Source: Maritalea porphyrae
GTDB taxonomy: Bacteria > Pseudomonadota > Alphaproteobacteria > Rhizobiales > Devosiaceae
Length of the DNA stretch: 64,000 nucleotides
Assembly (NCBI RefSeq): GCF_027213965.1
Contig: NZ_JAPWGX010000001.1
Span: 558,001-622,000, forward strand
Direction: 5' to 3'
How positions within the stretch are numbered: the stretch's first letter is position 1; each line of letters starts with the position of its first letter. Below the pieces are notes generated by a model. It did no database searches. It saw nothing but the letters and a program-made list of their open reading frames with translations, and was not told the origin of the DNA. Position numbers and translations under genes: made by a program. Below are positions 49,820 through 58,411 of the stretch, piece by piece.

Positions 49820-50836
49820 ATGAGCACAATGGAAGCAACTGCTGCAAAAATTATTGATCAACCGATTGTTGATCAACTTGTCGCGCACACCTCTGTCGAA
49901 ATGGAAGAGGTCAACAAGCTCTTGCTTTCGCGCGTGGGGTCACACGTTCAAATGGTTCCCGACATCGCCAACTATCTCATTTCCGCTGGTGGCAAACGTT
50001 TACGTCCTATGCTCACTGTTGCAGCTGCGATGATGTTCGAGCCCAAAGGGCAGCAGCACATTTCCTACGCCGCAGCAGTGGAATTCATGCATACGGCCAC
50101 GTTGCTGCATGACGATGTGGTTGATGAAAGCGACAAACGACGCGGCCAGGACGCGCCCCGAAAGATTTGGGGCAACGCAGCAAGCGTGCTTGTTGGCGAC
50201 TTCTTGTTGGGCCAAGCGTTTATGATGATGGTGGACGCCGGCAATTTGGAAGCGCTGGGCATTCTTTCCCGCTCTGCCGCCATCATTGCGGAAGGGGAAG
50301 TTTTTCAGCTTACCAATGCAAAAGATGCAAACACCAAAGTTGATGATTATTTTGAAGTTATCAAAGCTAAAACGGCTGCGCTTTTTGAAGCCGCTACTGA
50401 AGTTGGCGCAATGGCTGGCGGAGCCAACTTGGCGGATCGTTCAGCGCTGAAAACCTATGGTGCGCAATTAGGCATTGCTTTCCAATTGGTCGATGATGCC
50501 CTCGACTATGGTGGCGTGTCCGGCACAATTGGCAAAAATGTGGGCGACGATTTGCGCGAAGGCAAAATGACGCTGCCCGTACTGCATGCCTTGCAAAACG
50601 CTTCAACTACAGACGCACAGTTTATTCGCGAGAATTTGGGCAACCAAGACGCGAGTGAAAAAGCGGTGTCACGTGTGGTTGGCATATTACAGAGTTGCGG
50701 TGCCCTGCAGACCACACTGGATCGCGCTTACGAACATGCGGATTTGGCAAAGGCCGCGCTTGCGCCACTGGCCGAGCGCAATGGTGCGCGTATCCTCATA
50801 GAGATCGCAGATTACTGCGTTGAACGCGCAGCCTAG
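49820..50836 (+). CDS. ispB: Trans-polyprenyl diphosphate synthase (octa/decaprenyl)
   Basis: 338 aa long-chain prenyltransferase providing the side chain of ubiquinone. The first aspartate-rich motif is LLHDDVVDESDKRRG and the second is FQLVDDALDYGG; GGKRLRPML marks the IPP-binding region. Chain length is not readable with certainty, but alphaproteobacteria mostly use Q10. The start at 49820 has GGGGCGAG upstream; an earlier ATG at 49766 is in frame but lacks one. Its stop overlaps that of the BLUF gene. Confidence 0.93.
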   Translation: MSTMEATAAKIIDQPIVDQLVAHTSVEMEEVNKLLLSRVGSHVQMVPDIANYLISAGGKRLRPMLTVAAAMMFEPKGQQHISYAAAVEFMHTATLLHDDVVDESDKRRGQDAPRKIWGNAASVLVGDFLLGQAFMMMVDAGNLEALGILSRSAAIIAEGEVFQLTNAKDANTKVDDYFEVIKAKTAALFEAATEVGAMAGGANLADRSALKTYGAQLGIAFQLVDDALDYGGVSGTIGKNVGDDLREGKMTLPVLHALQNASTTDAQFIRENLGNQDASEKAVSRVVGILQSCGALQTTLDRAYEHADLAKAALAPLAERNGARILIEIADYCVERAA

Positions 50837-51303
50837 GCGCTTTTGCTAAACTCTTCCAGAATTTGCGCACGCCAATCGTCTTTCTTAAAACGTCTCAGCA
50901 CTCGCATGGCGATTGAGTCTCCAATTGACTTTTTATCGAGCTCTTTCAGGTAATCGACATAGCCCTTCAATCCTCGGCTGCTTTCATCTGAATCGATATA
51001 GGCCATTGACCAATCATTGAACTCGAGTTCACCAACACCATGACGCAACAAAAGTTTCACGTTGCGGTGTCGTGGGTCGGTTTTAATGCGCATGAAGATC
51101 GCTTCCACAGCAATCCGCGGGCCTTCCAGCACCTGCAAAAAACAATTGTCGTGATAAACAAGCAAGCCACCAACATCGACGCTATGATTGTTCTTGCGTG
51201 AGATGTGAAGCAAATCACGGATCTCGTCCCTTGTCAGGCGACGGGTGCCCAAGCTCGCGTATATTATTTGAAAAGGTTGCAGCATGTTCTCGTTTGATAT
51301 CAT
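50833..51303 (-). CDS. BLUF-domain blue-light photoreceptor
   Basis: 156 aa. The flavin-binding residues match AppA in identity and spacing: Tyr15 (IIYASLG), Asn39 (RKNNHS), Gln57 (FLQVLEG), Trp98 and Met100 (FNDWSMAYI), giving a complete photoactive site. After the BLUF fold there is only a C-terminal helical extension of about 50 residues (YVDYLKELDKKSIGDSIAMRVLRRF) and no output enzyme, so it must signal by protein contact. A GGGAGAG ribosome site supports the start. No obvious partner lies beside it. Confidence 0.95.
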   Translation of the reverse strand: MISNENMLQPFQIIYASLGTRRLTRDEIRDLLHISRKNNHSVDVGGLLVYHDNCFLQVLEGPRIAVEAIFMRIKTDPRHRNVKLLLRHGVGELEFNDWSMAYIDSDESSRGLKGYVDYLKELDKKSIGDSIAMRVLRRFKKDDWRAQILEEFSKSA

Positions 51304-54178: not shown

Positions 54179-54994
54179 ATGCAAGAAAGTGGGAATGACA
54201 TTGGCATAATGCGCGCGGCCCTAGAATGGTACAGCGCAATGGGCGTCGACATGGCGCTGAGCGACGAGCCCGTCGATCGATTTGCTGCGCCTGCGAGTGT
54301 GCAAAAAACAGCACCGGCTTCCATGCCATCAAGTGCCCAAACGACTACCGATGCACCCGCCCCCACGCAAACGCATATGCAGCCTGAGGTCCACAATGTG
54401 GAAGAGGCCAAGGCCCTCGCCGCAGCGGCAACCACTCTAGATGCGTTGCGTGAAGCTATGGATGGTTTTGAGGGCTGTCCGTTAAAACACCGCGCAACCA
54501 ATTTGGTTTTTGCGGCTGGGAACCCAGACGCAGACATTATGCTGGTGGGCGAAGCACCTGGCCGTGAAGAGGACATGCAAGGTGCGCCTTTTGTTGGTCG
54601 GTCTGGTGAATTGCTCGATCGCATTCTCGCAGCAATTGGACTTAATCGCGAGAAAGTTTTTATCGCCAATACCTTACCGTGGAGACCACCGGGCAACCGC
54701 AATCCAACGCCCGCGGAAACCGCGGTTTGTTTGCCTTTTTTGGTGCGGCAGGTTGAATTGGTTGCACCCAAGGTTATCGTGACCATGGGCGGTGCCGCTT
54801 CAAAAACACTGTTGAAGACCGAGGCCGGTATTTTGCGTCTGCGAGGCAAGTGGAAAGATATTGAAGTGGGAGAACATTCCTGCACTTCAATCGCCACATT
54901 GCACCCCACTTATTTATTAAGTCAACCTGCACAAAAAGCATTGGTGTGGCGCGATATGTTGAGCTTGAAAGCCAAAATGGCGACGTTTGAATAA
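54179..54994 (+). CDS. Uracil-DNA glycosylase, family 4-like
   Basis: 271 aa base-excision enzyme removing uracil from DNA. The catalytic segment is VGEAPGREEDMQGAPFVGRSGELLD (from residue 123), with IANTLPWRPPGNRNPTP and the late TLHPTYLL. A disordered proline/alanine-rich N-terminal region (about 40-75) precedes the domain. Of the four iron-sulfur cysteines of the Thermotoga enzyme, only counterparts of two are seen (Cys100 and Cys184), as is usual in this alphaproteobacterial branch, so a cluster may be absent or use other ligands. It lies upstream of moaB and a radical SAM gene. Confidence 0.92.
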   Translation: MQESGNDIGIMRAALEWYSAMGVDMALSDEPVDRFAAPASVQKTAPASMPSSAQTTTDAPAPTQTHMQPEVHNVEEAKALAAAATTLDALREAMDGFEGCPLKHRATNLVFAAGNPDADIMLVGEAPGREEDMQGAPFVGRSGELLDRILAAIGLNREKVFIANTLPWRPPGNRNPTPAETAVCLPFLVRQVELVAPKVIVTMGGAASKTLLKTEAGILRLRGKWKDIEVGEHSCTSIATLHPTYLLSQPAQKALVWRDMLSLKAKMATFE

Positions 54995-55092: not shown

Positions 55093-55629
55093 ATGTACAA
55101 ATCAAAAATTGACCAGTCTCAGGATATGGTGAAGCTAAATTTTGCTATTCTGGCCGTGTCAGACACCCGCACGCTTGAAACTGATGATTCTGGTGCACTG
55201 CTCAAAGAGATGATTAGTGAAAGCGGCCATATGGTTTTAGATCGGGACATTGTGACGGATGACCAGCAATTGATCCGCCAAAAAGTGCAGAACTGGATTG
55301 TGAACAAAGACATTGATGTGGTGATCACCACCGGTGGCACAGGCTTTTCGCAACGCGATGTTACCCCCGAGGCATTGGAGCCCCTGTTTGACAAAGTGAT
55401 GGACGGTTTTTCTGTTCTATTTCACCAATATTCGGCTGCTCAAATTGGCACATCGACCATTCAAAGTCGCGCCACGGGCGGATTGGCGGGAGAGACTTTG
55501 ATCTTTTGTTTGCCCGGTTCACGCGGAGCTTGCCGGGATGGTTGGCAGGGTGTCATCAATTTCCAACTCGATTCGCGGCATAAGCCTTGTAACTTTTTGG
55601 AAGTTTTGCCGAAGTATTCCTCGCGGTAA
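55093..55629 (+). CDS. moaB: Molybdenum cofactor biosynthesis protein MoaB/MogA-like
   Basis: 178 aa molybdopterin-binding protein that adenylates molybdopterin or aids metal insertion. Motifs: FAILAVSDTRTLETDDSGALL, VVITTGGTGFSQRDVTPEAL and LPGSRGACRDGW; it ends NFLEVLPKYS. The start at 55093 (MYKSKI) is preferred; the frame is open 21 codons further upstream without coding character. Confidence 0.9.
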   Translation: MYKSKIDQSQDMVKLNFAILAVSDTRTLETDDSGALLKEMISESGHMVLDRDIVTDDQQLIRQKVQNWIVNKDIDVVITTGGTGFSQRDVTPEALEPLFDKVMDGFSVLFHQYSAAQIGTSTIQSRATGGLAGETLIFCLPGSRGACRDGWQGVINFQLDSRHKPCNFLEVLPKYSSR

Positions 55630-55674: not shown

Positions 55675-55705
55675 TTGACAATTTGTTCTCATTTTGTTCT
55701 ATTCT
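55675..55705 (+). promoter_or_regulatory. SOS promoter with LexA box
   Basis: GTTC (55685-55688), seven bases, GTTC (55696-55699): a perfect match to the alphaproteobacterial LexA site GTTC-N7-GTTC. It lies just after a perfect -35 TTGACA (55675-55680) and next to a -10-like TATTCT (55700-55705; the 19-base spacing is slightly long), so bound LexA would block RNA polymerase. The radical SAM start is 45 bases downstream. No other exact site was noticed in the window by eye. Confidence 0.8.
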
Positions 55706-55744
55706 AGTGGAACGATTTGTTAACCCTTTGATCGCGAGGTGAAA

Positions 55745-56899
55745 ATGGCTATTCATGCAGCTTTCCCGCCACCGCCAGACAGTTTGGCCCGCATTGCCAA
55801 AAGCGCTGATGGCGACATTTTGGCAAGTAAAATGGTTTCGCCAAATCGCAATCGCGGTCGGGGTGCGCAGAGCAACTTGTCGGGACGATTTGAGGTATTC
55901 CAAAATGAGAGTTTTGATGATGGTTGGCAATCCTTAGAAACATTGGCTGATTTTAAAACCAATGTGCGCGAAGAGCGTGCGAAGTCGATTATTACCAAGA
56001 ACGAGTCTCCGGACCTAAATTTTGATCGATCCATCAATCCTTATCGCGGTTGCGAGCATGGTTGTTCATATTGTTTTGCGCGCCAAACCCACGCCTATTT
56101 GGGCCATTCGGCAGGTATTGATTTTGAGCGAGAGCTTTACGCCAAAACCAACGCGGCAGCGCGGTTGCGCGAAGAATTGAGCCGCAAAAAATATACGCCA
56201 AAACCAATAGCCATTGGCACCAATACCGACCCCTATCAACCGATTGAGCGTGAACGCAAAATCATGCGGGAAATCTTGGAGGTCTTGATTGAGTTCAAGC
56301 ACCCCGTGACTATTGTCACCAAATCCGCGCTTGTGGTGCGGGACTTAGATTTGTTGACCGAACTGGCCGAACAAAACCTCGTGCATGTGGCTATGTCGAT
56401 CACCACGCTTGATCGCAAGCTTTGTCGGGAATTGGAGCCGCGTGCTTCCACACCTTCCAAACGGCTTGAAGCTGTTGAATTGCTCAGCCAATCAGGCATT
56501 CCCACGATGGTGATGGCGGCACCGATTATTCCCGCGATCAATGACAGTGAATTGGAAAAAATTCTTGATGCCGCCGCCGCGCAAGGCGCAACGGCAGCAG
56601 GTATGATCATGCTGCGATTGCCGGGCGAAGTGCGCAATATTTTCCGCGAATGGCTGTTGCGCTTTTACCCAGACAAATTGCGTCATGTGCTCAATTTGGT
56701 GCGAGATGTACGCGGTGGACGCAACAATGATCCGCGCTTTGGGTCACGCATGTCGGGGCAAGGGCCTTATGCTTATGCTTTGCAGCGTCGGTTTGAATTG
56801 GCCATGAACCGCAACGGTTTGAAAAAGCGCTTGCCGCATTTGCGGACAGACCTCTTCACACAACCCGAAGTCCCAGAAGATCAATTGAGCTTGTTCTAG
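55745..56899 (+). CDS. PA0069-family radical SAM protein (spore-photoproduct-lyase-like)
   Basis: 384 aa radical SAM enzyme of the COG1533 group. The cluster motif is CEHGCSYCFA (NPYRGCEHGCSYC), followed by IGTNTDPYQPIE and HVAMSITTLDRKLCRELEPRASTPSKRLEAVE, all characteristic of the PA0069/Rv2578c branch. The substrate is unknown, but the relation to spore photoproduct lyase points to nucleic-acid repair. The last five residues are QLSLF, the consensus motif for docking on the DNA polymerase III beta clamp. The start at 55745 has AGGTGA upstream; a GTG two codons earlier is possible. It sits behind a LexA-controlled promoter. Confidence 0.9.
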   Translation: MAIHAAFPPPPDSLARIAKSADGDILASKMVSPNRNRGRGAQSNLSGRFEVFQNESFDDGWQSLETLADFKTNVREERAKSIITKNESPDLNFDRSINPYRGCEHGCSYCFARQTHAYLGHSAGIDFERELYAKTNAAARLREELSRKKYTPKPIAIGTNTDPYQPIERERKIMREILEVLIEFKHPVTIVTKSALVVRDLDLLTELAEQNLVHVAMSITTLDRKLCRELEPRASTPSKRLEAVELLSQSGIPTMVMAAPIIPAINDSELEKILDAAAAQGATAAGMIMLRLPGEVRNIFREWLLRFYPDKLRHVLNLVRDVRGGRNNDPRFGSRMSGQGPYAYALQRRFELAMNRNGLKKRLPHLRTDLFTQPEVPEDQLSLF

Positions 56900-57025: not shown

Positions 57026-58411
57026 ATGTTGGGCATGTCACGCCGCGAGTTTTTGTTGGGGTCAGCTGCGGCCTTTGCAGCCTCTTCAACGACCTATGCG
57101 ATCGCCAAAAATGCGCTTTCAGCAGATTCGCAATTGCCGCTCAACTATTTGAGCCATGAAATAATGCCGGGCAAAATCACCGAGCACATGATGGGCTTTG
57201 GCACTAGTGGACCGGCTCCAACTATTCGGTTCAAACAGCATCAGACCAAAACCATTGACGTCGTGAACAATCTGCGCGAGGCCAGTATCGTACATTGGCA
57301 CGGTTTGCGGCATCAAAATGATATGGACGGTGTGCCCTATCTTACTCAAAAGCCCATCGAAATGAGGGAGACATTTCGCTACAATGTCACTTCCCCAGAT
57401 GCGGGTACATTTTGGTATCACCCCCATTGCAACACGCTTGATCAAATGGGGCGCGGCATGACCGGCCTTTTGATTGTGGAGGAGCTTGAGGACCCGGGTT
57501 TTGACCATGATCTGGCGCTCAACATCCGCGATTTCCGGTTGGGCACTGACGGGCAGTTCGTCGCCATGTTTAAGCCAAGACTTGCAGCACGAGGCGGCAC
57601 GCTGGGTACTGTTTCAACGGTTAATTGGCAGGTTCAGCCCACCTATGATTTCCCCGCCGGCAGTCTTGTGCGATTGCGCCTTGCGGTGACTGACGTTACC
57701 CGTGTGGGCAACTACCAAATCTCTGGTGCAGACGCGCAAGTGATCGCCCTTGATTCCCATCCTGTTCCGCAGCCGCTGCCAGCATCTGACATTTTGCTCG
57801 CCCCTGGCCAACGCGCCGATGTAGCAGTGCGCATGCCAGAAAAGGAAGGCGAAGTGGCGGAACTGTTTTTGAACATTCTGTCCGGCCCCCGTTTGATGGC
57901 CACTTTCCGCTCGGTTGGCACTTCGCTAGGGCGTTCTTTAGAAGAACTCAAGCCGCTGCCACCCAACCCTGTGAAAGAGCCAGACCTGGCCAATGCTGAG
58001 ATTTTGGATTTCACCTTCGGCTGGACACCGGATGGGGCTGAACCATTGCAAAGCATTTGCGGCTCATTGGGCTATGTTTTTTGGTCTATCAACCGCAAGC
58101 CTTGGCTAGGTGACACACCCGGCCCACTTGATCCGCTAGCGACCATGAAGTTGGGCAAAAGCTATATTCTGCGCCTGCGCAACAATACGCCAAACGACCA
58201 TCCGATCCATTTGCATGGCTTGGCATTTAAACTGATCCGATCAGACAAACGCCAATTGCCGACCCTTTTCACCGACACAGCGCTATTGCAATCCGGCGAA
58301 ACCATGGATGTGGCCCTTGTTGCTGACAATCCGGGCGATTGGGCTTTCCACTGCCATGTGATTGAGCACCAAAAGACAGGTCTCACCGGATATCTGCGGG
58401 TTGAGGGATAG
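57026..58411 (+). CDS. Multicopper oxidase, Tat-exported (laccase-like)
   Basis: 461 aa. It begins with a twin-arginine signal (MSRREFLLGSAAAFAASSTTYA) and has three cupredoxin domains. The copper motifs HWHG, YHPH, HPIHLHG and HCHVIEHQKTGL are all present, supplying the type 1 site and the trinuclear cluster, with leucine as the axial type 1 residue. The enzyme oxidises phenols, metals or cuprous ions while reducing oxygen to water, in the periplasm. The substrate is open; copper detoxification (CueO-like) lacks the expected Met-rich insert. AGGA precedes the start. Confidence 0.9.
   Translation: MLGMSRREFLLGSAAAFAASSTTYAIAKNALSADSQLPLNYLSHEIMPGKITEHMMGFGTSGPAPTIRFKQHQTKTIDVVNNLREASIVHWHGLRHQNDMDGVPYLTQKPIEMRETFRYNVTSPDAGTFWYHPHCNTLDQMGRGMTGLLIVEELEDPGFDHDLALNIRDFRLGTDGQFVAMFKPRLAARGGTLGTVSTVNWQVQPTYDFPAGSLVRLRLAVTDVTRVGNYQISGADAQVIALDSHPVPQPLPASDILLAPGQRADVAVRMPEKEGEVAELFLNILSGPRLMATFRSVGTSLGRSLEELKPLPPNPVKEPDLANAEILDFTFGWTPDGAEPLQSICGSLGYVFWSINRKPWLGDTPGPLDPLATMKLGKSYILRLRNNTPNDHPIHLHGLAFKLIRSDKRQLPTLFTDTALLQSGETMDVALVADNPGDWAFHCHVIEHQKTGLTGYLRVEG

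Follow-up and report, generated by a model that had tools for sequence, protein, structure and literature searches.

A conserved LexA box precedes a PA0069-family radical SAM gene whose product lacks the catalytic cysteine of spore photoproduct lyase

RESULTS

A radical SAM gene behind a GTTC-N7-GTTC box in Maritalea porphyrae

A gene for a radical S-adenosylmethionine (SAM) protein of the PA0069 family is found in a 64,000-nucleotide stretch of the Maritalea porphyrae genome (contig NZ_JAPWGX010000001.1, positions 558,001 to 622,000, forward strand). The whole stretch is referred to as the window, and coordinates are those of the window. The gene and the features upstream of it are as follows.

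55675..55680, + strand: TTGACA, a -35-like hexamer (sequence)
55685..55699, + strand: putative LexA operator GTTCTCATTTTGTTC, GTTC-N7-GTTC (sequence, conservation in orthologues, rank under a lexA-trained matrix)
55700..55705, + strand: TATTCT, a -10-like hexamer (sequence; four of six positions match TATAAT, and other -10 registers are possible)
55736..55739, + strand: GAGG, a probable ribosome-binding site (sequence, inference)
55745..56899, + strand: PA0069-family radical SAM gene, 384 amino acids plus stop (open reading frame, NF033668 profile)

The original prediction, that of an SOS-induced DNA or RNA repair enzyme under LexA, described the box, both hexamers, and the 45 bases between the box and the ATG at 55745 correctly; an alternative in-frame GTG start is possible at 55739. 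The promoter around the box is a visual match and a weak one. A sigma-70 promoter scan did not list the TTGACA/TATTCT pair, because the scan admits spacers of 16-18 bp only and the 19-bp spacer of this pair exceeds that limit.

The protein was positively identified as a full-length member of NF033668, the PA0069 family of radical SAM proteins (540.8 bits against a cut-off of 360, profile positions 1-348 of 348), as the original prediction had proposed. NCBIfam lists NF033668 as a hypothetical equivalog without function, and the profile exceeds its cut-off in 70 of 200 genomes of the phylum. Pfam gave a radical SAM domain only (PF04055, 70.3 bits), and the Rv2578c family profile, NF038135, matched residues 72-316 at 236.7 bits, under its cut-off of 430. 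The cluster motif C103xxxC107xxC110 is present in all 102 rows of the family alignment; these correspond to 100 distinct sequences, with the window gene entered twice (window and L004) and L010 identical to L011. In the predicted structure, the nearest solved fold is that of spore photoproduct lyase (SPL), over residues 70-363, with 13% identity in the structural alignment.

The box is kept in place upstream of orthologues

A search for the box upstream of orthologues, suggested in the original prediction, found it conserved far above control level. There are 111 genomes of the same family with a match over the NF033668 cut-off, and 37 loci were fetched, 30 by score order and seven chosen from lower scores; the box precedes the orthologue in 30/30 of the former (own genome included) and 7/7 of the latter, that is, in all 37. 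Across the class, it is in place in 60 of 71 genomes from 65 families, compared with 5 of 901 control bins. This count omits off-contig bins, includes one hit added by hand (L041; the binned count is 59/70), and includes one hit, that of L052, on the opposite strand. Same-order matches were fetched in part, 14 and then four of genus g163, and the box was present in 13 of the 14. For named loci with enough upstream DNA the figure was 75 of 77, against 23 of 1784 control bins; 77 of 80 such loci were kept, with L184, L197, and L206 omitted for having less than 350 bp upstream, and they overlap the other genome sets, so that the counts should not be summed. By comparison, boxes are scarce at the AlkZ-like gene: it carries one in M. 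porphyrae, but just 6 of its 30 best-scoring loci, own genome included, do so.

GTTC-N7-GTTC is the LexA motif of the alpha-Proteobacteria and CTGT-N8-ACAG that of most beta- and gamma-Proteobacteria (PMC3323433). In other classes of the phylum, 26 genomes, possibly beta or gamma, have a match over the NF033668 cut-off, and all were fetched. An exact CTGT-N8-ACAG stands upstream of the gene in 18 of them, against 0 of 127 control bins (L121, which lies outside the bins, was added by hand; the binned count is 17/25). At L114, one of the loci lacking that motif, TTAGTAATAATACTAA is found instead, which we take to resemble the Xanthomonas LexA motif. These comparisons suggest that the gene has stayed under LexA control across one or more changes of LexA motif, with L114 perhaps a third form.

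The motif was assigned to LexA here because lexA itself carries it. The single PF01726 match of the M. porphyrae genome, lexA, is preceded by two GTTC-N7-GTTC boxes, and at least one box precedes lexA in 24 of 25 genomes, own included. A weight matrix was trained on 40 sites upstream of lexA in relatives, with the own genome excluded. It placed the radical SAM box at rank 11 of the 90 GTTC-N7-GTTC matches of the M. porphyrae genome; the ssb/uvrA box took rank 1, and the two lexA boxes took ranks 6 and 7. By itself, the number of matches in the window is at chance level (2 against 1.90 expected, with at least 2 in 55 of 100 shuffles), and with 90 in the genome many single matches must be due to chance. 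The second match in the window, at 57860-57874 on the minus strand, lies within a multicopper oxidase gene and was taken as one of these. Given the strength of the conservation, we regard LexA/SOS control of the radical SAM gene as nearly certain, and the gene as probably a single-gene SOS unit.

The protein shares the predicted fold of SPL but not its catalytic residues

Profile PF20903 (SPL) gave no match at E<=0.001 in the radical SAM protein or elsewhere in the M. porphyrae genome. Sequence searches of the PDB gave nothing at E<=1 with the single protein and no SPL chain at E<=10 with the family profile. The 100 distinct family sequences share no Cys beyond the three of the cluster motif, and the hydrogen donor of SPL (C141 in Bacillus subtilis) is thus missing; the fourth Cys of the window protein, C227, is unique to it within the set. 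At position 159, where the window protein has T159 (paired with Cys141), Cys occurs in 0 of the 100; the lack of a fourth conserved Cys is independent of that pairing. The position of the SPL relay residue Tyr99 is F111 in the window protein, and the family has Phe there in 75 and Tyr in 25 of the 100 sequences. True SPL was therefore rejected as an identity on three tested features (PF20903 match, hydrogen-donor Cys, and relay Tyr), although the overall fold, as predicted, is that of SPL. The original prediction had left the lesion specificity of the enzyme unassigned, rightly so in view of these residues. What the sequences themselves show is the operator with its conservation, family membership, the cluster motif, and the missing Cys.

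True SPLs are rare in the phylum. PF20903 exceeded its cut-off in 5 of 299 genomes, all of one genus of the same order, with strong matches (246-273 bits) in G426, G294, and G411. Of these, the lyase of G426 (L290) was compared with solved structures, and it matched SPL chains at 1.5e-59. The lyases of these three genomes carry the Cys, in FEASCYTDP or FEGSCYADP, as well as CQYCYL, and GTTC-N7-GTTC was found within 450 bases upstream in 0/3. In contrast, the NF033668 genes of the same three genomes and of G403, from that genus, are preceded by a box in 4/4 cases, that of G294 at -412. Weaker PF20903 matches (108-125 bits) were seen at L293, L294, and L296-L298, from five genomes of genus g163. 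These proteins have CAMACAYCYV or CTMACAYCYV, and YDLGENGDLS or YDIGENGDLS near the segment that holds the SPL Cys; they are perhaps another SPL-like protein without that Cys.

Neighboring genes and other box-bearing genes

Two genes upstream of the radical SAM gene recur among the 61 loci with full flanks, the first in 30/61 and the second in 46/61.

54179..54994, + strand: family-4 uracil-DNA glycosylase (UDG), upstream neighbor (profile match; synteny only)
55093..55629, + strand: moaB, upstream neighbor (profile match; synteny only, outside the proposed SOS unit)

An operon with UDG and moaB was considered and rejected; the association is read as synteny, because the box separates moaB from the radical SAM gene and the distances vary. 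A BLUF blue-light sensor gene (PF04940) lies a few kilobases away, at 50833-51303 on the minus strand of the window.

Several other genes of the M. porphyrae genome carry boxes. An uncharacterized protein of 117 amino acids (L105:2053-2406; L319, G000:C66:158107-158457) has GTTCTATTTTTGTTC 37 bases before its ATG. It gave no Pfam match at E<=0.001 and no NCBIfam match at E<=0.1, and many homologues share a WxGRSGRxYAL-like motif. Matches were found in 58 of 61 same-family genomes, and the box is present in 29 of the 30 best-scoring loci, own included (control bins 1/230); the sets for this protein and for the AlkZ-like one are 30 high-scoring loci each, own included. The gene possibly encodes a small SOS protein not described before. 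The AlkZ-like DNA glycosylase gene (PF06224; L303:2049-3209, contig C33) has GTTCCTTATATGTTC upstream, a C-5 cytosine DNA methylase gene (PF00145; L102:560-1957, C44) has GTTCACATTTTGTTC 43 bases before its start, and a DUF6157 gene (PF19654; L103:1573-1983, C66) starts 17 bases from GTTCTTATTTTGTTC, on the opposite strand. A comM-like Mg-chelatase gene (L305:422-1972, C22) has GTTCCTGAAATGTTC upstream; comM is given as SOS regulated in alpha-Proteobacteria (PMC3323433).

DISCUSSION

LexA control of the gene was part of the original prediction; the control is strongly supported, by a conserved box and a second LexA motif, but had been predicted before, and "uncharacterized" fits the enzyme better than its regulation. 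In 2012, LexA control of a gene named splB was predicted in alpha- and beta-Proteobacteria; its product was read as a photoreactivation enzyme, with an argument from UV and drying in soil (PMC3323433). That gene, like the one described here, encodes a radical SAM protein and has predicted LexA sites of different motifs in two groups, but it was read as SPL, whereas the PA0069-family protein lacks the SPL catalytic Cys. The gene named splB is very likely of the PA0069 family, because PF20903 is found in 5/299 genomes of the phylum and NF033668 in 70/200. PA0069 itself presumably figures in LexA regulon lists of Pseudomonas aeruginosa.

The original prediction also cited the mycobacterial Rv2578c as damage inducible. 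The Rv2578c family (NF038135) is a relative in the radical SAM region, under its family cut-off here, while NF033668 is the window protein's own family and shows no difference from it. In the literature searched, no paper mentions Rv2578c together with LexA; "a radical SAM protein" is, however, placed in the core SOS regulon of Gram-positive bacteria, with Mycobacterium tuberculosis among the seven species, in a 2020 study that predicted LexA control for such a gene both in Gram-positives and in Balneolaeota (PMC7739468). The LexA motif of Gram-positives is a different one, GAAC-N4-GTTC (PMC3323433). A table of LexA targets in Streptomyces venezuelae includes the radical SAM gene vnz_31145, with no family stated there (PMC9380542). 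SplB-like radical SAM enzymes were tied to SOS genes by neighborhood in 2013 (PMC3765255), and a Streptomyces protein of the Rv2578c family, described in 2026, is 17.6% identical to B. subtilis SplB, with the link to repair called speculative (PMC12924846). We recognized no functional study of the PA0069 family in the literature searched, which left most subscription journals outside. Within this limited search, the regulation is already known in kind; what appears new is the absence of the catalytic residues and the contrast with box-free true SPL.

The favored reading is that of a single-gene SOS unit for an SPL-fold radical SAM enzyme that reverses DNA damage directly, to which we give a probability of roughly 0.6. 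From the data presented above we infer LexA binding, induction, a DNA substrate, direct reversal, and quenching, in the following steps. LexA on GTTC-N7-GTTC, inside the promoter, would block RNA polymerase and keep the gene off, a step that the sequence supports. RecA on damaged DNA would bring about LexA self-cleavage, and the enzyme would be made. The enzyme would then bind damaged DNA and, as fold and regulation suggest, use its [4Fe-4S] cluster and SAM to generate a 5'-deoxyadenosyl radical. This radical would abstract hydrogen from a damaged base in DNA, with a pyrimidine adduct or a cross-link the likeliest target, and the lesion would fall apart into normal bases. A final step of the Bacillus SPL type would be impossible, because the Cys that returns the hydrogen is absent and the relay Tyr is Phe111; the product radical could be quenched by a tyrosine or by an outside reductant instead. 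Fold and regulation make a role on DNA reasonably likely, and put direct reversal at slightly less than even odds. With SPL as the closest solved fold of the model, the DNA part of the "DNA or RNA repair" originally proposed is plausible; nothing was found for RNA repair.

A number of observations weigh against this reading. The exact box is missing in 11 of the 71 class genomes, 1 of the 14 same-order genomes, and 2 of the 77 named loci. Eight of the 26 other-class genomes lack CTGT-N8-ACAG, and seven of them, all but that of L114, have no recognizable box. recA has an exact GTTC-N7-GTTC box in just 4 of 28 genomes; boxes with one mismatch, GTTCTCATTTTGTTT for one, occur in 25 of 28 but are less specific, with control bins of up to 9/23. 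(Several of the recA loci L260-L287 show imperfect repeats that overlap at an 11-base offset, GTTCTCATTTTGTTT again being an example.) The -10-like hexamer and its 19-bp spacer are a poor fit to sigma-70. On the protein side, the structure model is moderate, with a mean predicted local distance difference test (pLDDT) score of 75.8 and values below 50 at residues 108-114, the cluster loop. Aligned profile to profile with true SPL, the protein gives a weak match (probability 75.5) with its middle misplaced; residues were not paired from this alignment, and T159 was matched to Cys141 by visual comparison of motifs. Position 111 is Tyr in one of every four distinct sequences. Finally, SOS regulons also contain non-repair genes, so LexA control is no proof of repair.

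The last point favors an SOS-induced enzyme that does not reverse damage and instead modifies a base, a nucleotide, tRNA, or a protein for tolerance or signaling; the likeness of the predicted fold to that of a lyase acting on DNA leaves this the less probable course, although a serious one. A true SPL (SplB), which undoes the 5-thyminyl-5,6-dihydrothymine that UV generates during desiccation, is improbable. SPL is the nearest solved fold of the model, and the name splB and the argument from UV and soil drying have been put forward for the LexA-controlled gene of alpha- and beta-Proteobacteria (PMC3323433). The protein shares with SPL (PDB 4fhc, PF20903) the predicted fold, CxxxCxxC, and a Tyr before the third Cys (Y109, comparable to Y97 of SPL), but not the hydrogen-donor Cys, the Tyr99 position (F111), or the PF20903 match, and the family profile finds no SPL chain. 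The SPL of Clostridium acetobutylicum has its cysteine at a different place (PMC5368176), but a relocated Cys of that type is no help here, as the alignment has no conserved Cys besides those of the cluster. G294, G411, and G426, moreover, each own a separate PF20903 lyase, box-free in the 450 bases examined, beside a boxed NF033668 gene. A chance origin of the box, with the gene outside SOS control, as the chance-level count in the window and the 90 matches in the genome might suggest, is overruled by conservation in place across the class (60/71 against 5/901), by CTGT-N8-ACAG in its stead in other classes (18/26), and by the scarcity of boxes at the AlkZ-like contrast gene (6/30), and has hardly any probability left.

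The damage switch of the gene is kept in most genomes examined, even under another LexA motif, which points to steady selection for expression upon DNA damage. We tentatively propose that the PA0069 family is a distinct enzyme of the SOS core, with the SPL fold and under LexA control, that reverses a DNA lesion other than the spore photoproduct without an internal Cys as hydrogen donor. The label "photolyase/SplB" should be used with caution for this family, as the residues needed for SPL activity are missing, and for the same reason the explanation by UV and drying in soil (PMC3323433) may not apply. Should the enzyme have its own lesion to mend, the usual catalogs of bacterial DNA repair would lack both that lesion and the reaction that removes it.
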